Shown here: positions 5,870-16,925 of the stretch, one piece after another
Layout of the letters: the number at the start of each line of letters is the position of its first letter
Numbering within the stretch: position 1 is the first letter of the stretch
Assembly (NCBI GenBank): GCA_021770845.1
Contig: JAETQF010000001.1
Span: 124,001 to 188,000 of the forward strand
Direction of reading: 5' to 3'
DNA from: Oscillospiraceae bacterium
Lineage (GTDB): Bacteria > Bacillota > Clostridia > Oscillospirales > Oscillospiraceae
Length of the DNA stretch: 64,000 bases
Position numbers and translations under genes: made by a program
The notes under the pieces: model-generated
Database searches by the model: none
The model's input: only the letters and a program-made list of their open reading frames with translations
Told to the model about the DNA's origin: nothing

Positions 5870-5895
5870 ACCTGCGGCGGCGTTTGCATAGTATG
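5870..5895 (+). promoter_or_regulatory. Candidate mother-cell (sigma-K/E-like) promoter of the cotJ operon
   Basis: CATAGTATG at 5887-5895 resembles the sigma-K -10 box CATAnnnTA with one mismatch, and an AC dinucleotide 15 bp upstream resembles its -35. cotJ genes are expressed in the mother cell in Bacillus. No sigma-A promoter is seen in this gap on the plus strand. The match is weak. Confidence 0.35.
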
Positions 5896-5940: not shown

Positions 5941-6396
5941 TTGAATTCCGATGGAACTACCTCCCGCCCCTGTGGGGACGCCTGCGGCACCATGCCGTCC
6001 TGCGCCCCCCTGGCGGTACCATATGTACCTTTTCAGCAGCAGGGCAGCCAGAAATACAGCCAGGCCGACGCTCTGGCCAACGGCACCCTGTTTCCCGGGC
6101 TGAACCTTCCCTTCCACCTGAAGGCGGACGCCAGCCAGCTGCCCGATAACCATTCCACCCAGCTTCAGGCCCTGTTTTTTGTGGTCACCGAGCTGGGGAT
6201 GTACCTGGATACCCACAAGGATGACGCGGAGGCCTTTCAGCTGTTCCGCCAGTACGCGGAGCTGGCCAAGGAGGGCAAACGCCGCTATGAGGAGATGCAC
6301 GGCCCGCTGACCCAGCTCAGCGCCGGGCAGGAGGCCGCCTATCGCTGGCTGGACGATCCCTGGCCCTGGGAGTTTCAGGAAGGAGGCGCCAACTGA
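5941..6396 (+). CDS. Fused spore-coat protein CotJA-CotJB
   Basis: 151 residues from a TTG start at 5941, fixed by AAGGAGG at 5925-5931 with a 9-nt spacer. Residues about 20-62 are CotJA-like (PYVPFQ, then ALANGTLFPGLNLPF). Residues about 71-148 are CotJB-like (ELGMYLDTHKDDAEAFQLF, RYEEMHGPLT, and the terminal DDPWPWEF). In Bacillus these are two separate genes of the cotJABC operon, encoding inner coat-layer proteins. Here they are one uninterrupted ORF with a short linker. The stop overlaps the cotJC start (TGATG), so the two are coupled. Confidence 0.85.
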   Translation: MNSDGTTSRPCGDACGTMPSCAPLAVPYVPFQQQGSQKYSQADALANGTLFPGLNLPFHLKADASQLPDNHSTQLQALFFVVTELGMYLDTHKDDAEAFQLFRQYAELAKEGKRRYEEMHGPLTQLSAGQEAAYRWLDDPWPWEFQEGGAN

Positions 6397-6599
6397 TGTT
6401 TGTCTATGAGAAAAAGCTGCAGTACCCCGTTCGGATCAAGAACTGTAATCCGAAGCTGGCCTCCGTGATCATCTCCCAGTACGGAGGGCCGGACGGCGAA
6501 CTGGGCGCCTCCCTGCGCTATCTGTCCCAGCGGTATTCCATGCCCTATCCCGAGCTGAAGGGGCTGCTCACCGATATCGGTACTGAGGGGTCGTTTTGA
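6396..6599 (+). CDS. cotJC: cotJC, 5' segment (interrupted by the element)
   Basis: Encodes the first 64 residues of CotJC, a manganese-catalase family coat protein: MFVYEKKLQYPVRI, QYGGPDGELGASLRYLSQRY, and LLTDIGTE. The frame then enters the inserted element and stops after three foreign codons (Gly-Ser-Phe, TGA at 6597-6599). The family normally continues EExxHxE-like into the metal-binding helix, so this fragment alone should be inactive. The missing part is at 16512-16925. Joining base 6578 to 16512 gives a 198-residue protein, the usual family length, with no lost or gained residue. Confidence 0.95.
   Translation: MFVYEKKLQYPVRIKNCNPKLASVIISQYGGPDGELGASLRYLSQRYSMPYPELKGLLTDIGTEGSF
6579..6588 (+). 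repeat. Left attachment core (attL) in cotJC
   Basis: GGTACTGAGG encodes the Gly-Thr-Glu codons of cotJC plus one base. An identical 10-mer lies at 16512-16521. The bases flanking the two copies differ immediately on both sides. Confidence 0.9.
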
Positions 6600-6685
6600 C
6601 ACACCGGCCTCAAGCCGCCGCTATCACCGGGCTGTTCAGGAGCCGTGACGCAGGATACCGTGGGGCCATTCTCGCGCGCACTATC

Positions 6686-8287
6686 TTATTCAGGCGCTTT
6701 ATTCTCCAGCACTCGACTCAAGCCACACAGATTTTCCAGGATAAATATCCATTTCTGCGGTAAAAAATTCAGATGCACCTCTACCCGTTTGTCCTTGTGG
6801 ACTACCATGTGATCCAGCAGGTTTTTATAGAATGGTTCACTGTCCATCTCTCCTCTTACGACAGCCGCTATTTGCCGCTCCACATCCTTTCGCAGATCCC
6901 CCGGCTCATAAGCGATCCCCTCCTTGGAGTGCGCCGCATCCAACTTGACCCGCAGGGCGCCCAGTTCCCTGTCATACCGCTCATTCACAAGCTTCATTTC
7001 GTCCTTGGTGATCTGCCGGGAAAAGAAGGCGTCCAGCGCATCCGCTTTCTTTTGGGTGATCTGCTCAATCTGGTGCTCAAGTGTCTCGGAGCGGTCAGTC
7101 CCTTGCTCCTCCCCTGCCCGGATAGCCTCCATGGCGATATCAGTTGTATTTTGGATGATCCCATCCTGATCCATCTGCAGCGACGCCAAGGACTGCTTCA
7201 AAATATCCATGGCCAGCTCGTCCCGGAGCATCTTTCCAATATCACAGCCCACCGAATTCCCCCGAGCATCTGCATGACGGTTTCCCTCAGTGGTGGCGGT
7301 GAAGCACCCCCAGCGCCTGTAGCTGGTGCCGTCCTTTCGTTTCTTCTTTCGCGAGATGAAGCTGGCCCCGCACTCCCCGCACTTGATCTTGCCGCTGAAC
7401 ACGTAGCGGTTGGAGTGCCCGCCGCCATAGCCTCCCTTTCGATCCCGCTTTTTTAACTCGGACTGGACAATGTCCCACAGCTCCCGGCTGATGATCGGCT
7501 CGTGATGGTTGCGGATGACCACCAGCGCCTCCTCTCCATGGTTGTACTTCTTGGTGTGGCTGAGATAGTCCGGGGTGATGGTCTTTTTCTGCACCAGGTC
7601 GCCCACATATTTCTCGTTTTTCAGCACCTTGATGATGTAGGTATTCGGCCATTTTGTGTTCCCGGTCAGCGACTGGTATCCCGCCTCCCGCAGTTCCCGG
7701 GCGATCACGGAAGTACCCTTCTTTTCTATGCCGTACTTGTGAAAGATCTGCCGGACGATCTCAGCCCCTTCTGGGTTTATGGCCATCTTTCCACCCTTCA
7801 CATCGTAGCCCAGCAGCGATCTGCCAAACACCACCCCCTGCTCCATCCGCCGGGTCTGGCCCCACTTCACCCGGCTGGAGGTCTTGCGGCTCTCCTCCTG
7901 GGCCATGGAGCCCATGATGGACAGACGCAGCTCCGCGTCCGGCTCCAGGGAGTTGATGCCGTCGTTCATGAACACCACCCCCACCCCCAGGGCTTTCAGC
8001 TCCCGGGTATAGGAGATGGTGTCCAGGATGTTCCGGGAGAACCGGCTCACCTCTTTGGTGAGGATGAGCTGGAACTTCCCCATATGGGCATCGGCGATCA
8101 TTCGGTTGAACGCCGCCCGCTTTTTCGTGGAGGTGCCGGTGATCCCCTCGTCGGCATAGACCTGATACAGCTCCCAGTCCGGCTGGCGGTCGATGTACTC
8201 CTTAAAATACCGCTGCTGGCTCTCGAAGGAATCGGCCTGATCATCCCGGTCGGTGGACACCCGGCAGTAGGATGCCACGTTCAGCAT
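6686..8287 (-). CDS. Large serine recombinase (presumed cotJC-element excisionase)
   Basis: 533 residues, complete. The resolvase catalytic domain occupies about residues 1-150, with the nucleophile Ser11 in SYCRVSTDRDDQ and the conserved EVSRFSRN. A recombinase domain follows (about 160-280, with TYIIKVLKNEKYVGD), then a zinc-ribbon region with CGECGASF and later cysteines, and a coiled coil (about 395-460). It is transcribed toward the left core and lies about 90 bp from it, the normal place for an element's own integrase. A GGGGGGAG site precedes the ATG at 8287. It overlaps the small ORF upstream by 7 bp. Confidence 0.93.
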   Translation of the reverse strand: MLNVASYCRVSTDRDDQADSFESQQRYFKEYIDRQPDWELYQVYADEGITGTSTKKRAAFNRMIADAHMGKFQLILTKEVSRFSRNILDTISYTRELKALGVGVVFMNDGINSLEPDAELRLSIMGSMAQEESRKTSSRVKWGQTRRMEQGVVFGRSLLGYDVKGGKMAINPEGAEIVRQIFHKYGIEKKGTSVIARELREAGYQSLTGNTKWPNTYIIKVLKNEKYVGDLVQKKTITPDYLSHTKKYNHGEEALVVIRNHHEPIISRELWDIVQSELKKRDRKGGYGGGHSNRYVFSGKIKCGECGASFISRKKKRKDGTSYRRWGCFTATTEGNRHADARGNSVGCDIGKMLRDELAMDILKQSLASLQMDQDGIIQNTTDIAMEAIRAGEEQGTDRSETLEHQIEQITQKKADALDAFFSRQITKDEMKLVNERYDRELGALRVKLDAAHSKEGIAYEPGDLRKDVERQIAAVVRGEMDSEPFYKNLLDHMVVHKDKRVEVHLNFLPQKWIFILENLCGLSRVLENKAPE

Positions 8288-8511
8288 GGCTTCTCCCCCC
8301 GTTCTGCCGCGCTGGCTTGTGCCCTGATATGCGCCCGAAGCTGATTTTTCAGCTTTTCTTCCGCATACCGATACTGCACCTCATTCAACGCTCCACTGTC
8401 CTTCAGCGACAGCAAGAGGGCTCTCTGGTACTCAAACAGGAACCGGCTGTCCGTCTCCTTGGTGATCTTGCGGTCGTGTTCGATCCCGACCAGACGCGCC
8501 TGCTCCGCCAT
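8281..8511 (-). CDS. Small protein co-translated with the recombinase
   Basis: 76 residues from ATG 8511, with AAAGGGGG about 10 nt upstream; an in-frame GTG at 8520 is less well placed. Charged and mostly helical, with a segment (ALLLSLKDSGALNEVQYRYAEEKLKNQL) that recalls SHOCT-type domains. Its last codons overlap the recombinase start, so the two are made together. Recombination directionality factors of serine integrases are small proteins often encoded beside the integrase. That role is possible here but rests on position only. I do not recognise it as a known factor. Confidence 0.6.
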   Translation of the reverse strand: MAEQARLVGIEHDRKITKETDSRFLFEYQRALLLSLKDSGALNEVQYRYAEEKLKNQLRAHIRAQASAAERGEKPC

Positions 8512-8642
8512 CCCGCACACCCCCTTTGTTTCAAGGGTATGCGTGGGACAGGCCCGCTTTGATCGTTGATTTGCCCCTTTTATTTGACAGTAATCAGCAT
8601 TTCACAGTATCATGTGGAAAGCATACCAATGATCGAACCAGA

Positions 8643-8651
8643 TACGGTATG
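8643..8651 (-). promoter_or_regulatory. Candidate sporulation -10 box upstream of the recombinase operon
   Basis: On the minus strand CATACCGTA matches the sigma-K -10 consensus CATAnnnTA exactly and sigma-E CATACAnT with one mismatch. No convincing -35 is visible at the right distance. It lies about 130 nt before the small ORF. Confidence 0.25.
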
Positions 8652-8733
8652 TTTGTAAGTATTTTGAAATAAGGATTTGTCATTGCCTCCGATTTCTGGT
8701 AGAATGGAGAAAACTTGCGCAGGAGATGAAATT

Positions 8734-9455
8734 ATGAAAAAAATCACCCGCCGCTCCATCGTCCTGTACTGCCTGCCTTTGTTCGCCGTGGGGCTGTTCA
8801 CCACCATGCTGAACAACTACCTGATCTATTTCTACCAGCCCACCGCCGCCTCCGGCCTGCCCACCCTCATCACCCAGGGCTATGTGTTTGCCGGGGTATT
8901 GACGGTGATCGGCCTGATCAAGGCGCTGGGCCACATCATCGACGCGGTATCCGATCCCATAGTGGCCTCCCTCAGCGACAAATCCGGCCACCGGGACGGG
9001 CGGCGCATCCCCTTTTTGCGGCGGTTTGCCGTCCCCTTCGCGCTGTGCGCCCTGCTGATCTTCTGCTCGCCTTTTGATACGCCCCTGCTCAACGATATCT
9101 GGCTGGCGGTGTTCATCTGGGGCTACTACATCTTCTATACCCTGTATATGATCCCCCCTCCATGATGGCGGACGTGATCCGGTATGACACCGTAAAAACC
9201 GGCGTCAACCAGGAGGGCACCTTCGCCGCCGCCAAGAGCTTTGTCACCAAAATGGGCACCTCCATTGCCACCATGATCGTCCCCTCCCTTGTTGTGGTGG
9301 GGGCGGCAACCGGTCAGAGCGTGGGACGGCAGGGGCTGCTGCTCACCGCTGTGGTGGGCGGGGCGTTTACCCTGATCTCCGTGGCCATCTATGCCATGTA
9401 CCGCGAGAAGGAGATCCGCTCCGTCATCCGGGGTAACGCAAAGGGGGCTGTATAA
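8734..9455 (+). pseudogene. Decayed GPH-type (MFS) sugar/cation symporter
   Basis: Two pieces of one transporter in different frames. The first (8734-9165) begins MKKITRRSIVLYCLPLF after AGGAGA, has three or four membrane helices and the loop DAVSDPIVASLSDKSGHRDGRR, and ends in foreign residues after YTLYMIPP. The second, from about 9162, resumes with MMADVIRYDTVKTGVNQEGTF, typical of a late loop of the same family, and runs to the C-terminus. Family members are about 450-480 residues, so roughly 200 central residues are missing at about 9155-9165. The deletion also changes frame. The product should be non-functional. Confidence 0.85.
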
Positions 9456-10768
9456 TGATACCAGGAGCAGAATACTATGCACAGCGGCTGGCCCGGATGA
9501 TCCAGTGCGAAACCGTGTCGGTAAAGGGATCCTATGACGACGCCGAGTTTGCCAGGCTGCGCGGGGTGATGGAGGAGCTGTTCCCCCTGGTGCACCAGCG
9601 CATGGAGCGCCATATTTTCAGCCAGGACTGCTGGGTCTACGAGCTCAAGGGCAGGGACGCCTCCCGGAGCATCCTGCTCATGTCCCACCACGACGTGGCG
9701 TCGGCGGAGGGCACCTGGGAGCATGACCCGTTTGCCGCTGAACTTGTGGACGGCAGGCTGTGGGGCCGGGGGACGGTGGACACGAAAACGCCTCTGTTTG
9801 CCGAGTTCTCCGCCCTGGAGGAGCTGCTGGGGTCGGGCTGGGATCCGCCCTGCAATGTGTTTCTTGCCTCCTCACACAATGAGGAGCTGGGGGGCGACGG
9901 CATCCCCACGGCGCTGGCACATTTCAAAGAGCGGGGCCTCACCTTCGAGGTGGTTTTGGATGAGGGCGGCGCCATCATCGATCCGCCCCTGTCCGGGATG
10001 ACGTGTGAGAAGTGCGCCATGGTGGCCGTCCACGAAAAGGGGCGGTACAAGCTCAACTGCGCCGCCTCCGCCGCCAGCGCCCACACCGGACTCAGCGCCG
10101 CCGTCACCGCCAGCCCCATTGAGCGCATGGCGGGGTTCCTTCAGGAGGCCGCGTCCGGGAAATTGTTTATCCGCCGCCTGAATCCCCAGGTGCGGGCCAT
10201 GTTCCGACACTTGGCCCCCCACTGCAAATTTCCCATGAACGCGGTGCTGGGCAATCTTTGGCTGACCGCCCCCCTGCTCCAAAAGGTCATGCCCAAGCTG
10301 AACCCCCAGGCGGGGGCCATGCTGGGCACGGTGTGCTCTTTCAGCAAAATCGAAGGGGACGATAAGGGCTGCACCGCCACCGTCAGCTTCAAGGCCGTAG
10401 ACGGGGACGACATGGCCCGCGATCTGGACGCCCTGCGGGCTGCCGCGAACAAGTACGGCGTGGACATCACAATCGACCCGGCTTCTGAATACCACGGCCC
10501 GGCCGACATGGGACAGCCCGCTTTTACCTACACCATGGAGCGTATCCGGGCGGTGTTCCCGGATTACCCGCCCGTCCCCTTCATTCTGCCCGCCGGGACG
10601 GACGCCCGGTGGCTCACCGATATCTGTCCCTGTGTACTGCGCTTCGCCCCCATCCGGCTCTCCTCCCGGCAGCTTGGCTCTGTTCACTCGGAGAACGAAA
10701 ACATCGACCTGGACGCCATCGTTGACGCCGTGACATTCTACATTGACTTTCTTCGCAACTATCCATAA
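9455..10768 (+). CDS. M20 family metallopeptidase
   Basis: 437 residues, similar in layout to M20 carboxypeptidases of the PM20D1/CPS1 type. Metal and catalytic motifs are present: SHHDVAS (His and Asp), GRGTVDTK (bridging Asp), HNEELGGDG (catalytic Glu pair), a later Asp in LPAGTDARW, and a terminal His in LGSVHSENE. A lid domain sits in the middle. The start overlaps the stop of the decayed transporter (TAATG) and follows AAAGGGGG, so peptidase and transporter probably formed a uptake-and-hydrolysis unit. The substrate is unknown. It is intact although the transporter is not. Confidence 0.85.
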   Translation: MIPGAEYYAQRLARMIQCETVSVKGSYDDAEFARLRGVMEELFPLVHQRMERHIFSQDCWVYELKGRDASRSILLMSHHDVASAEGTWEHDPFAAELVDGRLWGRGTVDTKTPLFAEFSALEELLGSGWDPPCNVFLASSHNEELGGDGIPTALAHFKERGLTFEVVLDEGGAIIDPPLSGMTCEKCAMVAVHEKGRYKLNCAASAASAHTGLSAAVTASPIERMAGFLQEAASGKLFIRRLNPQVRAMFRHLAPHCKFPMNAVLGNLWLTAPLLQKVMPKLNPQAGAMLGTVCSFSKIEGDDKGCTATVSFKAVDGDDMARDLDALRAAANKYGVDITIDPASEYHGPADMGQPAFTYTMERIRAVFPDYPPVPFILPAGTDARWLTDICPCVLRFAPIRLSSRQLGSVHSENENIDLDAIVDAVTFYIDFLRNYP

Positions 10769-10786
10769 AAAGAGAGGGAGATACTT

Positions 10787-11286
10787 ATGAGTAAGGTAAA
10801 AAACGAACCGAAAATCAAGAATCCGCTGATCGCTGCCATCCGGGAGCAGCTGGAACACCGGGCGCTGTGGATGTACCTGCTGTGCGACGAGGCGGCAAAA
10901 AAGGGTCTGAACGCGGAGGACTACGCCCCCGCCGCCCCATCCGCCGCTGTGGGCTGTACCAAGGCGGGCTGCTGCGGAAAAAGGCCGGAGGCGGGCCGTC
11001 CCTGAAGGGGCTGAAAAAGACGCTGTTCTCCAAGTTTGCCCAGTGGGTGTTTGAAATGGACATCAAGCGGTGCGACGACGACCACCTGGACATCGACTTC
11101 CACTACTGCCCCCTGGTGAAGGCGTGGCAGAAGCAGGGCTGCTCCGACGAGGAGATCCGGCTGTTGTGCGACCACGCCATGTGCGGCGACCGGGGCATCG
11201 CGGAGAGCTTCGGCTGTGAGCTGGACTTGCCCGCCACCATCGCCCGCGGGGATGATATCTGTCAAATTCGATTTGTCCGGCGCTGA
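10787..11286 (+). pseudogene. Frameshifted L-2-amino-thiazoline-4-carboxylate hydrolase family gene
   Basis: The first frame starts MSKVKNEPKIKNPLIAAI at 10787. It loses homology-like sequence near 10925-10945, and the rest continues in another frame to a stop at 11284-11286 (FSKFAQWVFEMDIKRC, FHYCPLVKAWQKQGCSDEE, LLCDHAMCGDRG, then a C-terminal LARGDDICQ-like end). The combined product, about 165 residues, resembles the ATC hydrolase family, with conserved Cys and His in the second half. A single indel separates the frames. A sequencing error is possible; otherwise the gene is dead. Confidence 0.7.
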
Positions 11287-11411
11287 ACCCAGCCGCAATA
11301 CATTATAAATAGAAGTGATCCCTATGCCCATTGCCGAAGCCGTCATTGTCCCCCACCGTAGGCCAGGGGCCGGGAGCGGCAGGCGCAGGCCACCACCATC
11401 GACGCCTGCTG

Positions 11412-11451
11412 AAAAGCGTCCGTCTGCAATTTACGCAGACGGACGCTTTTT
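11412..11451. terminator. Bidirectional terminator
   Basis: A 16-bp stem (arms 11412-11427 and 11435-11450) with T tracts on both strands separates the rightward cargo genes from the leftward hypB-hypA unit. The rest of the gap 11287-11568 shows nothing else. Confidence 0.85.
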
Positions 11452-11568
11452 GCCCAAATTGATTTCCCGGCAGCAAAAGAGGAATCACTTGCCCTCAGCC
11501 CGGGCCGCCGCCATAGACTTGAAATAGCATTGCCGGGAGGATCCCTCCATTTCTTCTCTCTTTCGCTG

Positions 11569-11913
11569 TCAGTACGCCTCGATCTCCTTGATATTCACCT
11601 CATTTCCGGTCAAAAGCCAGGTGTTTCCACTCTGGCAATGGGGACAGGTTTTACCGTAGGCCACAGTGGGATAATCCCGCCCGCAGCCGTCGCAGTGGGT
11701 CATTGCGGGCAGCATTTCGATTCGCAGCTCCGATCCCTCCACCAGCTCCGTCTTGGCCGCCGCCCATTTCCAGCAGTCGGTGAGGTAGTCCGGCACTACG
11801 CCGGATACCTCCCCCAGCTCCAGCACCACGGCGGACACCCTTTCCAGGTCGTTTTCCGCCGCCACCCGCTCCACGCTTTTTATGATGTGGAACACAATGC
11901 CCAGCTCATGCAT
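11569..11913 (-). CDS. hypA: Hydrogenase nickel metallochaperone HypA
   Basis: 114 residues. The N-terminal MHE provides the nickel-binding His2. The zinc site is made by CDGC and CPHC at about residues 73 and 90. HypA delivers nickel to NiFe hydrogenase (or urease) with HypB. The gene is the last of the hypB-flavoprotein-hypA unit, beginning 3 bp after the flavoprotein stop. No hydrogenase subunit and no hypCDEF gene is in the window, so its client lies elsewhere or is not a hydrogenase. Confidence 0.92.
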   Translation of the reverse strand: MHELGIVFHIIKSVERVAAENDLERVSAVVLELGEVSGVVPDYLTDCWKWAAAKTELVEGSELRIEMLPAMTHCDGCGRDYPTVAYGKTCPHCQSGNTWLLTGNEVNIKEIEAY

Positions 11914-11916
11914 GGC

Positions 11917-14709
11917 CTACTCCCTGCTCTTTTTTGCGGCCCGCTTGATCTTGATCTCCCGCTTGATCATGTTGGGCAGGATGGCCTTCATCTTGTCCTC
12001 CGACTTCATCATGGTGGAGCACTCAGGGCGCTCCCGGTGGAGGCGGATGGCGTCGAACTCGCAGCGGGTGGTACACAGGCCGCAGCCAATGCACTTATTG
12101 GGATCCACGACGGAGGCCCCGCAGCCCAGGCAGCGGGCGGTCTCCGCCTTGACCTGTTCCTCGGTAAACGCGCGCTTGGCGTCCCGGAAGGACTTCCGCC
12201 AGTCAAAGCTGTCGTCCATGCCGGGGATCTGCCGGGAGGCCGTGTCATACTGCTCCACCTTAATATTTTCCTTGTCCAGCTCCACAAAGTACCGTGGATC
12301 CCGGCCGATGGTCATGCTGGTGTTGGGCTGGACGAAGCGGTGGAGGGACACCGCCGCCTCCTTGCCCGCCGCGATGGCATCGATGGCGAACTTGGGGCCG
12401 GTGTACACGTCGCCGCCCACGAATATGTCGGGCTGGGCGGTCTGGTAGGTCTTGGCGTCGGCCTTGGCCCAGCCGCCCCGGGCCAGCTCCAACGCGCTCC
12501 CCTCCAGTAGCTCGCCCCACTCCACGCTCTGGCCGATGGACAGCACCACGTGGTCGCAGGGGACGGTGATGGTGTCCTGCTCGTCATACTGGGGGGCGAA
12601 GCGGCCCTGGCCGTCCCACACGCTGGTGCATTTCATGAACACCACGCCGGATACCTTCCCGCCCTCGGCCAGAATCTCCTTGGGGCCCCAGCCGCACTGG
12701 ATGGTCACGTCCTCGTCCTCCGCCTCGGCGATCTCCTCCAGGGAGGCGGGCATTTTCTCCCTGGGCTCCAGGCAGTACATGGACACAGAATCCGCCCCGC
12801 AGCGGTGGGCCGTCCGGGCGGCGTCGATGGCCACATTGCCGCCGCCCACCACCACCGTCTTGCCGGGAACTTTCATCGTCTCATCCGCCAGAGCGTTGCG
12901 CAGGAACTCCACCGCGGAGTACACGCCGGGGGCGCTCTCGCCGGGGATGCCGGGCAGACGGCCCCGCTGGCAACCGATGGCGATATAGAACGCCTCGTAG
13001 CCCTGGGCCCGCAGGTCGTCCAGGGTCAGATCCCTGCCCACCTCCACGCCGCAGCGGAAGTCCACCCCCAAGGCGCGGATGATGTCGATCTCCGCGTCAA
13101 TCACGTTCTTTTCCAGCTTGAAGGAGGGGATGCCGTAGCGGAGCATTCCGCCCAGCTCCTTGTTCTTCTCAAACACGGTGGGCTCATAGCCCTTGAGGGC
13201 CAGGTAATAGGCGCAGGACAGGCCCGCCGGGCCGCCGCCGATGATGGCGATCTTCTGGGAGAACTCACCCTGGAGCTTGGGGATTACTTTTTTGGGCACG
13301 AACCGGCGATCGGCATCCAGATCCTGCTGGGCGATAAACTTCTTCACCTCGTCAATGGCCACGGCCTGATCAATGGTGCCCCGGGTGCAGGCGTCCTCGC
13401 ACCGGCGGTTGCACACCCGGCCGCACACCGCGGGGAACGGATTCTCTTTTTTGATAAGCTCCAGCGCCTCGGTGTATCTGCCCTGGGCCGCCAGCCTCAA
13501 ATAGCCCTGGACGGCAATGTGGGCAGGGCAGGCAGTCTTGCAGGGGGCGGTGCCCGTCTCGTGGGTGTTGATCCGGTTCTTATCCCGGTAGTCCACCGAC
13601 CACTTCTCCGGGCCCCACTTCACCTCGTCGGGCAGCTCCTGCCGGGGGTACTGGATGGGCGCACCGTCCTTGGCACACAGCTTCTGGCCCAGCTTGGCGG
13701 CTCCGGCGGGGCACACCTCCACGCAGCCGCCGCAGGCCACGCACTTGTCCTCCTCCACACGGGCTACATAGGCGGAGCGGCTCATATTGGGGGTGTTGAA
13801 CAGCTGGGAGGTGCGCAGGGCGTTGCAGACGTTCACATTGCAGTTGCAGATGGCGAAGATCTTCTCCTCACCGTCGATGTTGGTGATCTGGTGGACGAAG
13901 CCGTTTTCCTCCGCCCGCTGGAAGATGTCCAGCGCCTCCTCATAGGTGATGTACCGCCCGCCCTTGTCCGTCTCCACCACGTAGTCGGCCATGTCGCCCA
14001 CCGCCACGCACCAGCCCTCCGGATCGTCGCCGCAGCCCTCGCCCATCCGGGCCCGGCTCATCCGGCAAGAGCAGGGGGAGGCGGCGAATTTGTTGTACTT
14101 TTGCAGCCAGTGAGAGATGTGCTCGATGGAGATAGACTGGTTCTCCAGCTCGATGGCCTTCTCCACCGGGATGACGTGCATCCCGATACCCGCCCCGCCG
14201 GGAGGCACCATGGGGGTGATCTTCTCCAGGGGCAGGAAGGTCATACGTTCAAAAAAGGCCGTGACCTCCGGGTGCTCCTGGATCTGGGCGTGGCGCATAT
14301 TGAAAAATTCCGCGCTGCCCGGCACGAACATGGGCAGGACGTACCGCTTCTCATGGTTGGGATTCTTGCCGTCCAGGTTCTCCCAGTGGTACTCGATGAG
14401 GCCGATGAGGCTCATCTCGTCCAGCAGCGTTTGCAGCTTTTCCGGCTCCATGCCGGTGAGCTTTTGAATTTGGGCGAAGGTCTTGGGCTTGCGCACCTTC
14501 ATCTTCATGGCCACGTCGGCCATCTCGTCGGTAACCAGCCCGGCCAGGCCCCAGTACTCCGGATCCTCCGCCGTGACGCCCTTCAGCTTGGCGGGCACCC
14601 GGTCGGTGATCATCCGGCCCAGCTTGAGGATCTTCTCCCGGGGCTGATCCGTCTTGGGAATCTCAAAGGGCAGCCTGCTCTCGTCCAGGGGGAATTTCGT
14701 CTCGCTCAT
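11917..14709 (-). CDS. Multi-iron-sulfur FAD/NAD(P)-dependent oxidoreductase
   Basis: 930 residues. An N-terminal region of about 300 residues has cysteine motifs (SPCSCRMSR, CNCNVNVC). A ferredoxin-like CVACGGCVEVCP lies near 325. Next is a GltD-type iron-sulfur region (CKTACPAH, CGRVCNRRCEDAC), an FAD-binding GGGPAGLSCAYYLALKGY, an NAD(P)-binding GGGNVAIDAARTA, and a C-terminal 4Fe-4S domain (NKCIGCGLCTTRC). It resembles the glutamate-synthase beta-subunit fold used as an electron-transfer module. Lying between hypB and hypA it could serve a nickel hydrogenase, but the electron partners are not known. It is an intact gene within the cotJC element. Confidence 0.85.
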   Translation of the reverse strand: MSETKFPLDESRLPFEIPKTDQPREKILKLGRMITDRVPAKLKGVTAEDPEYWGLAGLVTDEMADVAMKMKVRKPKTFAQIQKLTGMEPEKLQTLLDEMSLIGLIEYHWENLDGKNPNHEKRYVLPMFVPGSAEFFNMRHAQIQEHPEVTAFFERMTFLPLEKITPMVPPGGAGIGMHVIPVEKAIELENQSISIEHISHWLQKYNKFAASPCSCRMSRARMGEGCGDDPEGWCVAVGDMADYVVETDKGGRYITYEEALDIFQRAEENGFVHQITNIDGEEKIFAICNCNVNVCNALRTSQLFNTPNMSRSAYVARVEEDKCVACGGCVEVCPAGAAKLGQKLCAKDGAPIQYPRQELPDEVKWGPEKWSVDYRDKNRINTHETGTAPCKTACPAHIAVQGYLRLAAQGRYTEALELIKKENPFPAVCGRVCNRRCEDACTRGTIDQAVAIDEVKKFIAQQDLDADRRFVPKKVIPKLQGEFSQKIAIIGGGPAGLSCAYYLALKGYEPTVFEKNKELGGMLRYGIPSFKLEKNVIDAEIDIIRALGVDFRCGVEVGRDLTLDDLRAQGYEAFYIAIGCQRGRLPGIPGESAPGVYSAVEFLRNALADETMKVPGKTVVVGGGNVAIDAARTAHRCGADSVSMYCLEPREKMPASLEEIAEAEDEDVTIQCGWGPKEILAEGGKVSGVVFMKCTSVWDGQGRFAPQYDEQDTITVPCDHVVLSIGQSVEWGELLEGSALELARGGWAKADAKTYQTAQPDIFVGGDVYTGPKFAIDAIAAGKEAAVSLHRFVQPNTSMTIGRDPRYFVELDKENIKVEQYDTASRQIPGMDDSFDWRKSFRDAKRAFTEEQVKAETARCLGCGASVVDPNKCIGCGLCTTRCEFDAIRLHRERPECSTMMKSEDKMKAILPNMIKREIKIKRAAKKSRE

Positions 14710-14737
14710 GTCAGTTCTCCTCTCTCTTTTTTAGGGA

Positions 14738-15406
14738 TCAGCTCCGCCAGCTCTTTACCTGCCTCCGCAGCCAGTCCGCCCAGTCCTCCACCCCCTCGCC
14801 GGTTTTGGCGCAGATGGGGATAACCACGGCGTTGGGGTTGCGCATCTTGATGTACTCCCGGCATTTGTCCAACTTAAAATCGAAGTAAGGGGCCACGTCA
14901 ATTTTATTGATGAGCACCACGTCGCACACCTGGAACATCAGGGGGTATTTCAACGGCTTGTCATCCCCCTCGGGCACCGACAGAATGGCGGCGTTCTTCA
15001 CCGCCCCCGTGTCGAACTCGGCGGGGCACACCAGGTTCCCCACGTTCTCCAAAATAGCCAGCTCCACATCGCCGTCCACCAGCTCGTCCAGCCCCTGCCT
15101 GGTCATGTCCGCGTCCAGGTGGCACATCCCGCCGGTATGGAGCTGGATGGACTTCACCCCCGACTCCGCCATAGCCCGGGCGTCCACGTCGGAGTCGATG
15201 TCCGCCTCCATGACGCCGATTTGGATCTCATCCTTCAGCAGCTCTACCGTACGGCGCAGGGTGGTGGTTTTACCGGAACCGGGGGCGCTCATGAGGTTGA
15301 GCAGGAAAATTCCCTTTTCCTTCAGCTCGGCCCGCAGCTCCGCCGCCCGCCTGTCGTTGTCGGCAAAGACGCTCTGCTTCACCTCAATCACGCGAACCTG
15401 ATCCAT
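14738..15406 (-). CDS. hypB: Hydrogenase nickel incorporation GTPase HypB
   Basis: 222 residues. The P-loop is SAPGSGKTTT, with a switch region around MEADIDSDVDA and NKID as the guanine-specificity motif. LENVGNLVCPAEFD carries the family's metal-site cysteine. It lacks the N-terminal His-rich stretch of some HypB proteins. HypB drives nickel transfer from HypA. It is the first gene of the minus-strand unit, with a good promoter (15449-15477) and a FadR-type operator just downstream of the expected transcription start. Confidence 0.93.
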   Translation of the reverse strand: MDQVRVIEVKQSVFADNDRRAAELRAELKEKGIFLLNLMSAPGSGKTTTLRRTVELLKDEIQIGVMEADIDSDVDARAMAESGVKSIQLHTGGMCHLDADMTRQGLDELVDGDVELAILENVGNLVCPAEFDTGAVKNAAILSVPEGDDKPLKYPLMFQVCDVVLINKIDVAPYFDFKLDKCREYIKMRNPNAVVIPICAKTGEGVEDWADWLRRQVKSWRS

Positions 15407-15425
15407 GCCGATCCTCTCCTCTCAC

Positions 15426-15436
15426 TGGTTCAACCA
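15426..15436. promoter_or_regulatory. FadR-type operator in front of hypB
   Basis: TGGTTCAACCA fits the FadR-subfamily pattern TnGTnnnACnA and is extended to CTGGTT-c-AACCAG. It lies about 6-16 bases past the predicted hypB transcription start, where binding would block transcription. Confidence 0.65.
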
Positions 15437-15448
15437 GATATTGTCATA

Positions 15449-15477
15449 ATTTTATCATTTTCCCTCCTTTCAGTCAA
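15449..15477 (-). promoter_or_regulatory. Sigma-A promoter of the hypB operon
   Basis: On the minus strand TTGACT (15477-15472) and TAAAAT (15454-15449) are 17 bp apart, about 45 nt before the hypB start. Confidence 0.75.
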
Positions 15478-15571
15478 CCGCCCGAAAATCTTTCCGGATT
15501 TTTTGTCGATTCCACAGTTTTGACGGATTGCATTTGTGAAAGGTGTATGATAAACTGCCCCATGTGATATG

Positions 15572-15582
15572 TGGTATGACCA
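15572..15582. promoter_or_regulatory. FadR-type operator in front of the GntR gene
   Basis: TGGTATGACCA again fits TnGTnnnACnA exactly. It sits 21 bp before the regulator's start codon and downstream of a TATGAT-like -10 (15546-15551), consistent with autorepression. Confidence 0.65.
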
Positions 15583-15603
15583 GAACCAGAAGGAGGTAAC
15601 GGT

Positions 15604-16314
15604 ATGGAATTTACAAGGCTCTCCTCCCCCAGCCTGAAGGATCTGTTTGTCCAGCAGCTCCAGGGGATGATCTTGTCCGGGGCCCTCCCCGTAGGCGCGC
15701 AGCTCCCCCCGGAGCGCGTCCTTGCCGAACAGATGCACGTCAGCCGCACCGTGGTAAACAGCGGCCTTGCCGAACTGTCCGATCAGGGCTTTTTAGAGGT
15801 GCACCCCAGGCAGGGCACCTTCGTGGCGGACTACCGCCGCCGTGGAAATCTCAGCACCCTGATCGCCATCATGCAGTATAAGGGAGGCGTGTTGGGCCGG
15901 GAGGAGATCCGCTCCATCCTGGAAGTCCGCCGGGCACTGGAGCACCTGGCGGCGGAGCGGGCTATCCGGTACGCCTCCGACGAGGCGCTGGATCGGCTGG
16001 GTAAGGCCCTGGCCCAGATTGCCGCCGCCTCCAGCGCCGAACAGGCGGCAGAGTGTGCCTTCGATTTTCAGCACGAGCTGGCGCTGGTTGGGGGAAACAG
16101 CATCGTTCCACTGATCTACCACTCCTTTAAACCACCTGTGATCGCCCTGTGGGTGCGCTTCTGTCATCTATACGGCATCCCGTCCCTGGTACGCAACACT
16201 CAGATCCTCTATACGTTCATCCGGAACCGGGATCAGGACGGCGCGTCCCAGTGGATCGACGCCTATCTGGAACAGGCCATCAGCGGAAGCCAGCAGATCT
16301 ACGAGTGCCGCTGA
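15604..16314 (+). CDS. FadR-subfamily GntR transcriptional regulator
   Basis: 236 residues. The N-terminal winged helix-turn-helix (about residues 8-75) has the family pattern LPVGAQLPPERVLAEQMHVSRTVVN and GTFVADY. The C-terminal FCD ligand domain (about 90-225) is helical, with conserved polar residues such as RRALEHLAAERA and FDFQHEL. It is divergent from hypB, and each promoter has a TGGTnnnACCA operator. The likely ligand is a small organic acid, as in LldR or PdhR, but nothing here fixes it. The start follows AGGAGG. Confidence 0.9.
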   Translation: MEFTRLSSPSLKDLFVQQLQGMILSGALPVGAQLPPERVLAEQMHVSRTVVNSGLAELSDQGFLEVHPRQGTFVADYRRRGNLSTLIAIMQYKGGVLGREEIRSILEVRRALEHLAAERAIRYASDEALDRLGKALAQIAAASSAEQAAECAFDFQHELALVGGNSIVPLIYHSFKPPVIALWVRFCHLYGIPSLVRNTQILYTFIRNRDQDGASQWIDAYLEQAISGSQQIYECR

Positions 16315-16511
16315 TTTTAGAATGCGCTCTTTGCAGTCAGTCCGGGATTGCCACGCGGATACAGACCTTCCAGCAGGGCTTGTCCCTCTGAACGATCCGC
16401 GTTTCGCCGCCTTCGGCCAGTTGCGGCGGCTCACTTCAATATGTAAAGTATTTTCCCTTTATAAGATTGAAATTACCTGGCTTTATGCGGTTATCTTTTG
16501 GCCCCCTGGTA
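16315..16511. other. Right end of the element, no gene seen
   Basis: About 200 bp between the GntR stop and the right core. AT content rises toward the junction. No ORF with a start site or terminator is evident. Its last bases form half of the element-circle junction. Confidence 0.6.
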
Positions 16512-16521
16512 GGTACTGAGG
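16512..16521 (+). repeat. Right attachment core (attR) in cotJC
   Basis: GGTACTGAGG, identical to 6579-6588. Here it is followed by the genuine cotJC continuation encoding Glu-Leu-Gly-His-Leu-Glu-Met. Confidence 0.9.
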
Positions 16522-16925
16522 AGCTGGGCCATCTGGAGATGGTCGGCACCCTGGTGCACCAGCTCACCCGGAACCTCAGCGACAGCCAGATCAAGACCGC
16601 CGGCTTTGACGCGTATTTTGTGGATCACACCACCGGCGTATACCCGCAGTTTGCCTCCGGCTATCCCTGGTCTGCCTCCACTATGCAGGTCACCGGGGAC
16701 GTCATCGCAGATTTGACCGAGGATCTGGCGGCGGAGCAGAAAGCCCGCCTCACCTACGACAACATTCTCCGTCTGTCCGACGATCCGGATGTGAATGATG
16801 TGATCCGCTTTTTGCGGGAGCGGGAAATCGTCCACTTCCAGCGGTTCGGCGAGGCCATTGAGCTGGCCAAGCAGAGGCTCGATCAGAAAAACGTATACTT
16901 TACCAACCCGGCCTTCGACAAGTAA
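16512..16925 (+). CDS. cotJC: cotJC, 3' segment
   Basis: 137 codons that complete CotJC: GTEELGHLEMVGTLVHQL (the metal-binding helix with the E-x-x-H-x-E pattern), the DHTTGVYPQFASGYPWS loop, and a helix with REREIVHFQRFGEA giving further metal ligands. The frame extends a few codons upstream into the element, but no start site is present there. In the unrearranged chromosome this piece therefore has no ribosome-binding site. It ends NPAFDK and is followed by a terminator. Confidence 0.95.
   Translation, partial: GTEELGHLEMVGTLVHQLTRNLSDSQIKTAGFDAYFVDHTTGVYPQFASGYPWSASTMQVTGDVIADLTEDLAAEQKARLTYDNILRLSDDPDVNDVIRFLREREIVHFQRFGEAIELAKQRLDQKNVYFTNPAFDK

Follow-up and report, generated by a model that had tools for sequence, protein, structure and literature searches.

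We describe here a spore-coat gene, cotJC, that is split by an intervening element in a stretch of 64,000 nucleotides from an Oscillospiraceae bacterium (hereafter the window; positions 124,001 to 188,000 of contig JAETQF010000001.1, assembly GCA_021770845.1). In the window, cotJC is interrupted between codons 61 and 62 by an element of 9,933 bp (6579 to 16511), and joining the two parts at a short core present at both ends gives back a continuous gene of 198 codons. We consider it quite probable that this is a sporulation-gene intervening element, whose excision in the mother cell would rebuild cotJC in the way that excision of skin does for sigK and excision of gin does for gerE. An earlier note on this DNA had proposed such an arrangement; it was right on the sequence and is probably right on the biology, and what it missed is that the 61/62 junction is one of several sites in cotJC that are used by elements of this kind.

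The split gene and its empty site

The 5' part of cotJC (codons 1-61; 6396 to 6578 on the forward strand) matches positions 1-66 of the PF05067 profile, and the 3' part (codons 62-198 plus the stop codon; 16512 to 16925, forward strand) matches positions 62-201. These limits, corresponding to 61 codons and to 137 codons plus stop, had been given in the earlier note and were verified in the window, as was the in-frame join across LLTDIGTE-ELGHLEM. The core, GGTACTGAGG, is present on the forward strand at the left end (attL, 6579 to 6588) and, as a second copy, at the right end (attR, 16512 to 16521), and these are its only two occurrences in the window when both strands are counted; the crossover probably lies in its first GG. 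That core-to-core joining restores the frame is judged by sequence alone. The GC content of the element is 60%, versus 63-65% for the flanks.

The extent of the element is defined by the exact join and by an empty site, and the latter constitutes, at the sequence level, the best evidence for insertion. Genome G247, which belongs to the same genus, has an unsplit cotJC whose product is 87% identical to the joined window protein across its 198 residues, and the window flanks align contiguously on this gene with an overlap corresponding to the 10-bp core. The comparison with a whole cotJC, called for in the earlier note, thus bears out the join. The surroundings of the two genes show other differences: the cotJ operon of G247 (L336) lies in inverted orientation between its flanks, and the short-chain fatty acid transporter adjoining cotJ in the window has no match in the 14-kb stretch of G247. 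The window's own assembly, a 2.48-Mb draft of 48 contigs that is 82% complete, contains no further match to the manganese-catalase family at E <= 0.001 beyond the two cotJC pieces. Elements of the skin and gin kind interrupt the coding region of a sporulation gene and have a short direct core at their ends, and the window element shows both features.

The element carries on its reverse strand the gene of a large serine recombinase (LSR) of 533 amino acids (6686 to 8287; Pfam Resolvase, Recombinase and Zn_ribbon_recom), which groups with the LSRs of other elements located at the same junction. The start of this gene is overlapped by a small open reading frame (ORF; 8281 to 8520, reverse strand) of 79 amino acids when read from the GTG at 8520, or 76 when read from the ATG at 8511, which is a candidate recombination directionality factor. 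Upstream of this small ORF/LSR operon lies CATACCCTT (8533 to 8541, reverse strand), a candidate mother-cell -10 sequence, and the cotJ operon itself is preceded by CATAGTAT (5887 to 5894, forward strand), a candidate sigma-E/K-type -10 that matches the CATANNNT class found in cotJ upstream regions. Compared with Pfam and NCBIfam, the small ORF gave nothing above chance-level scores, and no PHROGs family matches it. Among the 32 complete elements at the 61/62 junction considered below, a small ORF falling into one of three sequence clusters is located upstream of the LSR in 20, and 29 have, according to a second scan, an ORF of 40 or more codons in this place, not all of these ORFs being convincingly related. 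Its position and recurrence lead us to guess that the small ORF encodes the excision factor.

cotJC is broken at several sites in the family

Matches to the manganese-catalase family were present in 318 of 400 sampled family genomes, the other 82 having none at E <= 0.001. Re-examination of the 114 genomes with a weak best match (roughly E above 1e-46, picked by eye) showed that 85 of them, by hand count, contain cotJC in at least two complementary pieces, and that the breaks fall at four sites: around codons 30-34 (site A), at 61/62 (site B, the one used in the window), at codons 133-136 (site C) and around codons 173-177 (site D). At least two pieces lie on one contig and strand in 49 of these 85 genomes; in the other 36 the pieces are on separate contigs, where a contig break and an element are not separable singly, though the break positions agree. 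The rest of the 114 comprise one genome (G391) with a break near codon 50, five with divergent but unsplit proteins (G003, G056, G233, G272 and G365), and 23 with a single piece or an ambiguous pattern, often at contig ends. It should be noted that 85 is in one respect a lower bound, as genomes having both a split and an unsplit copy (e.g. G038) lie outside the 114. With at least 85 of 400 sampled genomes of a single family, this is possibly among the commonest developmental DNA rearrangements of bacteria.

Junctions that restore the frame were read for site A in L213, L214 and L229, for site C in L217-L220, and for site D in L041. Loci in which the registers were off (L215 for site A, L216, L222 and L225) are not counted here, L215 for site B and L223 were left out, and the ends of L221 share GA only. 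A fifth site near codon 50 (G391, and perhaps G280 and G382) was considered as well; its junction was not confirmed and we do not claim it. Among the nine genomes of the window's genus, four are split at site B (the window's own included), one is split at site C, and four have a best match of full-length strength; among these four, inspection of G247 and G377 showed a full-length cotJC.

Several breaks can occur in one gene. The cotJC gene of G053 is divided into three by two elements, one at site B and one at site D, each with an LSR of its own, and in G150 the breaks at A and B are on one contig. In Candidatus Agathobaculum intestinipullorum (L056), an LSR adjoins each of the breaks at A, B and D, so that one gene seems to hold three elements; the first piece is on another contig and the last piece was not located. 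The family therefore offers a natural series, with unsplit genes and genes holding one, two or perhaps three elements, for asking how a terminal cell line tolerates mobile elements. On one contig each of G143 (C1) and G397 (C122), the first and last cotJC pieces are in opposite orientation and the gene order looks scrambled, which is perhaps the outcome of recombinase-driven inversion.

Elements at site B

Relatives of the window LSR were present in 72 of 150 family genomes at E <= 1e-40, and many of them adjoin a cotJC half. In a scan of named genomes, of which the best 80 loci were retained, a cotJC piece was located within the fetched stretch of 50 loci according to a script count; among the first 37 of the 80 rows (L049-L085) it was found in 36, L059 being the exception. 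The scan of the 400 family genomes added 25 loci, the window's own included, and 24 of these likewise have a cotJC piece in the fetched stretch. Among the named carriers are Pseudoflavonifractor sp. An44, P. phocaeensis An507, Eubacterium sp. 14-2 and Lactonifactor longoviformis DSM 17459, the last of which has an unsplit paralogue as well. A split cotJC is also present in loci assigned to Lachnospiraceae and other lineages. In Pusillibacter faecalis MM59, the two pieces of a gene split at site B are 29.9 kb apart, as computed from their positions, on a 504-kb plasmid (NZ_AP023421.1; L334), and the one-contig genome G098 is also split at this site. Neither Pusillibacter half lies under a listed cotJC gene in the gene table, which is incomplete, and the split may account for missed annotations of cotJC such as this one.

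After removal of the duplicates L072, L079 and L084, 32 complete site-B elements remained, with lengths ranging from 2,437 to 16,009 bp. GG follows codon 61 at both ends of all 32, and no other base is always shared. Hence, the common core described in the earlier note is present in the window as a 10-bp identity, but this identity is not general and only its GG is constant. The right GG falls within codon 62, which specifies a conserved glycine. The left GG belongs to the element, and its constancy there is therefore informative; GG is likely the crossover dinucleotide. The LSR gene is antisense to cotJC in 30 of the 32 elements, and the small elements of 2.4-3.5 kb (L046, L082, L048 and L047) retain open LSR frames of 491-550 codons.

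In Eubacterium sp. 14-2 (G405, L083), the site-B halves are about 72 kb apart on one scaffold, which is far above the other measured elements. Two related LSR genes or gene fragments lie side by side next to cotJC in L144 (G271:C234), L052 and L037 (G005), which suggests tandem or nested site-B elements, although L144 and L052 may represent one genome.

Recombinase lineages and their spread

A tree was constructed from 58 hand-picked LSRs, of which 22 are associated with site B, eight with site A, eight with site C, five with site D and one with the break near codon 50, while 14 are located outside cotJC. The LSRs of sites A and C each form one clade with a support of 100/100, and sites B and D require two changes each. 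All site labels together require six changes on the tree, the possible minimum being five and the mean of shuffled labels 31.6. The break sites are thus served largely by separate LSR lineages, although a long-branch warning makes the deep joins of the tree unsure. The LSRs located outside cotJC, which were found with the site-B query, group on the B side; the targets of such relatives were sought in eight loci, without result.

Close LSRs were found in distant hosts. The LSRs of G305 and G310 differ by a synonymous distance (dS) of 0.17 and those of L062 and L083 by 0.30, and in both pairs the host cotJC 5' part is saturated, or nearly so, in silent changes; for L066 and L067 the values are 0.28 for the LSR versus 2.62 for the cotJC 5' part. 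The elements therefore move between hosts and re-enter the same codon.

Selection on the separated gene

The earlier note had named cotJC genes ruined by other mutations in carriers as the finding that would speak against its reading, and where we looked this was not what we found. None of 60 split site-B C-parts contains an in-frame stop (the set was limited to hits with at least 105 aligned residues, and some genomes are represented in it more than once); of four shorter C-parts that came up in a later count, L044, L045 and L085 stop reading near site C, and L093 ends with its contig. Among 104 N-parts, a single stop was flagged, in L073, whose cotJC match starts only at codon 28; this stop probably lies beyond a site-A break. 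Eight of the match rows with a listed stop were checked, and in each of them the stop lies either past the break, in element sequence, or immediately behind the end of cotJC.

Over codons 62-174, the median ratio of the non-synonymous distance (dN) to dS was 0.152 for 49 pairs of split C-parts, among which some loci repeat one genome, versus 0.154 for 47 unsplit pairs. Three pairs of related genomes that share collinear site-B elements are more telling. Their nucleotide identity is 84.9% over the whole element for G053/G198, 78.2% over 4.35 kb for G181/G306, and 79-80% in two blocks for G166/G260, and the dN and dS values of the 3' part over the same codons are 0.000 and 0.43, 0.004 and 0.54, and 0.016 and 0.87, respectively, corresponding to a dN/dS of 0-0.02. 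If these elements were inherited, the 3' part, although located kilobases away from the cotJ promoter, would have been under strong selection while separated, and the split gene seems, from these substitution patterns, to be still in use.

Promoter motifs upstream of the recombinase operon

We took CATANNNT to be the -10 sequence common to sigma-E and sigma-K. Among 65 non-redundant site-B LSRs it is present upstream of 49 in the sense orientation, versus 20.7 expected from shuffles, and of 29 in antisense. One of four control patterns, TACANNNAT, also exceeded expectation (16/65 versus 6.7), so that counts over the whole region are weak on their own, and the claim is carried by the positional and phage controls. 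For these, we used the 79 LSRs closest to the site-B query in loci holding a cotJC piece. Between -300 and -192, CATANNNT occurs upstream of 32 of the 79 in sense and 12 in antisense, as compared to 13 and 21 of 122 phage LSRs (Fisher p = 1.5e-6 against the phage LSRs); for CATACNNT, the corresponding numbers are 15 and 1 of 79, and 1 and 2 of 122 (p = 3.7e-6). LSRs not associated with cotJC gave 9 of 43 for CATANNNT and 2 of 43 for CATACNNT (antisense, 8 and 1). Hence, site-B LSR operons are preceded by a sporulation-type -10 more often than phage LSRs are. The numbers for site C (3/7, antisense 0) and site D (2/4, antisense 1) are too small to judge. The regions upstream of cotJ contain CATANNNT in 42 of 49 cases in sense and in 25 of 49 in antisense.

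An ACAA starting 13-15 bases upstream of CATANNNT was present at 12 of 58 sites and at none of 39 antisense sites, in a test devised after the sites had been seen. In its sequence, this combination recalls the sigma-E plus SpoIIID control described for the directionality factor of C. difficile (PMC5025042). A strict sigma-K pattern, AC-N15-18-CATANNNTA, was not enriched (3/65 versus 1.2 expected). An unrestricted motif search captured the conserved coding sequence of the small ORF and was discarded; when restricted to more than 200 bases upstream, the search gave nothing promoter-like at width 8, and GCATAnanT at width 9 alone. The window's own genome encodes sigma-E, above the NCBIfam cut-off, and an unsplit sigma-K-like gene that scores 258.6 bits, versus a cut-off of 298.65 that none of 14 control genomes, B. 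subtilis included, passes.

Proposed excision in the mother cell and other explanations

According to the explanation that we favour, a mother-cell sigma factor (sigma-E and/or sigma-K) would transcribe the small upstream ORF and the LSR gene during sporulation, the small protein would switch the LSR to excision, and the LSR would recombine attL with attR across the GG dinucleotide, thereby releasing a 9.9-kb circle and rebuilding cotJC, which would then be read from the cotJ promoter. The forespore would retain the element, and in this way the element would be inherited. Separate LSR lineages would have specialised on different conserved codons of cotJC, and would move between hosts and be able to stack in one gene. 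What we infer is that the element is excised, that this happens in the mother cell alone, and that the small ORF takes part in it. The skin-like reading of the earlier note is supported by the empty site, the GG/GG junctions, the purifying selection, the enrichment of the promoter motif, the presence of the sigma-E and sigma-K-like genes and the lack of phage structural families in the ORFs scanned.

Several observations weigh against this explanation. No junction or circle sequence was seen, and the circle junction had no exact match in IMG/VR. The equal median dN/dS of split and unsplit genes indicates no relaxation, but it mixes lineages of unknown split age, and for L041/L060 the dS of the LSR (0.95) exceeds that of cotJC (0.43), which leaves some room for the separate arrival of related elements. 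Several match rows of the 114-genome re-examination list a stop inside, and the check covered only eight rows. The broad motif CATANNNT lies in the expected interval of only 32 of the 79 site-B LSRs, with 12 in antisense, and site A shows no enrichment (1/10, antisense 2), the LSRs of sites A, C and D being few. Finally, horizontal spread is clear (for L133/L134, the dS of the LSR is 0.17 and that of cotJC is saturated), and some splits may be recent and intact without any need of excision.

This spread, seen in L133/L134 and L062/L083, would also be expected if cotJC were a plain integration hotspot, the conserved codons of which serve as attB, cotJC being lost in the carriers and its halves being intact as the insertions are recent. 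The cargo genes without a link to sporulation, the 82 family genomes without a manganese-catalase match, and the occurrence of LSR relatives elsewhere (30 of the best 80 loci have no cotJC piece in the fetched stretch) point in the same direction. We nevertheless regard a hotspot as unlikely, given that the three collinear pairs combine a cotJC dS of 0.43-0.87 with almost no amino acid change in the separated part, that the 60 length-filtered C-parts are free of in-frame stops, that elements as small as 2.4-3.5 kb keep open LSR frames, and that a promoter motif of the sporulation type is over-represented ahead of the LSR operon. Excision might alternatively be non-developmental, occurring at a low level in any growth phase, with CotJC being made by those cells that have lost the element. 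The modest fraction of LSRs with the motif in the expected interval would agree with this, and the excised yin element of C. botulinum was detected at every time point (PMC10747680). Yet site-B elements have the motif in the expected position more often than phage LSRs do, and an element that is often excised in the germ line would tend to disappear, whereas related genomes share collinear elements; we give this possibility little credence. An assembly artefact or a chimeric contig, which might be suspected in view of the draft state and incompleteness of the window's own assembly, is scarcely conceivable: a like split is present in 84 other genomes by hand count, and the site-B splits on the Pusillibacter faecalis plasmid record and in the one-contig genome G098 already contradict it.

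LSR records filed as phage in IMG/VR and GenBank were considered as possible excised circles and rejected, as the three tested for terminal overlap (L253, L333 and L335) have none and look chromosomal. Seven loci were checked for cotJC pieces (the four best of 80 from IMG/VR, two from GenBank, and the Pusillibacter plasmid), and a cotJC piece lies beside the LSR in six of them, L254 having none. Records with cotJC pieces beside the LSR include 'Bacteriophage sp.' MT839280 and MT837874 and some IMG/VR contigs (L333, L335, L253, L255 and L256), and these look like misfiled fragments of bacterial chromosomes.

Relation to known intervening elements

Intervening elements are known in sigK, spsM, spoVFB, spoVR, gerE and yabG (PMC5595907, PMC4191935, PMC10747680, PMC5025042). 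The type of mechanism is thus already known, and the closest case is gin, which is also non-phage. As described there, gin of Bacillus cereus ATCC10987 (Abe et al. 2017, PMC5595907) likewise lies inside a sporulation gene, has a short core (9 bp), restores the frame upon excision, and combines an LSR with a small protein, GirX (42 amino acids), that is needed for excision; it differs in its target, gerE, its length of 28.6 kb and its three recombinases. The cotJC elements, in contrast, occupy a coat gene at several insertion sites, start from 2.4 kb at site B, and occur across much of a family. The skin elements in sigK of B. subtilis and Clostridioides difficile also employ a serine recombinase and a directionality factor, and CD1234 is under the control of sigma-E and SpoIIID in the mother cell (PMC5025042), which resembles the promoter motif of the cotJC elements. 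However, skin resembles a prophage and interrupts the gene of a key regulator (PMC5025042), whereas the window element, in which phage structural genes were not found, interrupts a coat gene. SP-beta in spsM, vfbin in spoVFB and vrin in spoVR (the latter two named in PMC4191935), and yin in yabG (PMC10747680), are likewise inserted in sporulation genes; they are prophages or prophage-like and, as far as described, use one site per gene. The window LSR also matches the model of XisF, the recombinase of the fdxN element, at 2.3e-32, with 112.6 bits versus a cut-off of 375. The fdxN element interrupts a nitrogen-fixation gene in heterocyst cyanobacteria and follows a similar logic of germ line and soma.

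No report of a cotJC rearrangement was found in the literature searched, the coverage of which leaves out most subscription papers and bioRxiv, and the word cotJC is absent from the main text of Durrant et al. (PMC10083194). Within this coverage, the features that are new are cotJC as a target, the multiple sites per gene, the stacking and the prevalence.

Taking a wider view, we think it somewhat more probable than otherwise that cotJC is, across gut Clostridia, a gene in pieces at the DNA level, in which LSR lineages each occupy a different conserved codon stretch and up to three elements are stacked, so that the terminal mother cell would have to carry out two or three programmed excisions to make one protein, and that late, non-essential mother-cell genes constitute a safe harbour where mobile elements and their arbitrary cargo last at almost no cost. 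The codon stretches targeted by the LSRs presumably encode metal-site motifs. The elements are also a source of serine recombinases with defined attB sites and of candidate directionality factors.

Content of the element and its surroundings

The statement of the earlier note that the element is not a phage holds for the ORFs scanned: neither Pfam, NCBIfam nor PHROGs revealed phage structural, packaging or lysis genes among them. When nine element ORFs, the smaller ones lying outside the scan, were compared with PHROGs, the LSR alone matched an integration family, the rest being metabolic, regulatory or of unknown function. None of the main ORFs of the element matched a relaxase or conjugation family, and the LSR did not reach the cut-offs for the SCCmec recombinases CcrB (125.9 bits versus 900), CcrC (123 versus 900) and CcrA (59.9 versus 700).

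The cargo begins with the remnant of a major facilitator superfamily transporter (8677 to 9455, forward strand), which matches the MFS_2 profile at positions 2-117 and then 338-423, the middle (about 117 to 338) being gone through internal deletion. It is followed on the same strand by genes for an M20 family peptidase (9455 to 10768; Pfam 5.7e-22) and an L-2-amino-thiazoline-4-carboxylic acid hydrolase-like protein (10867 to 11286; Pfam 2.8e-19). The reverse strand encodes a HypA nickel metallochaperone (11569 to 11913; Pfam 1.1e-32, with an NCBIfam hypA score of 70.1 bits that is below the cut-off of 88.1), an iron-sulfur/flavin oxidoreductase of 930 amino acids (11917 to 14709; Pfam Pyr_redox_2, Fer4_20 and Fer4) and a HypB GTPase (14738 to 15406; NCBIfam TIGR00073, 2.2e-72, above the cut-off), and a GntR/FCD regulator identified by Pfam (15604 to 16314) is encoded on the forward strand. 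The oxidoreductase has matches at E <= 1e-150 in 17 of 120 family genomes, its own included, and this cargo is therefore not peculiar to the element.

Outside the element, the gene directly preceding cotJC is an apparent fusion of cotJA and cotJB in a single ORF of 151 amino acids (5941 to 6396, forward strand; Pfam CotJA 3.4e-12, CotJB 2.8e-23). Directly upstream of cotJ, between 4128 and 5796, lie a gene for a six-cysteine SCIFF peptide and a radical SAM/SPASM gene.

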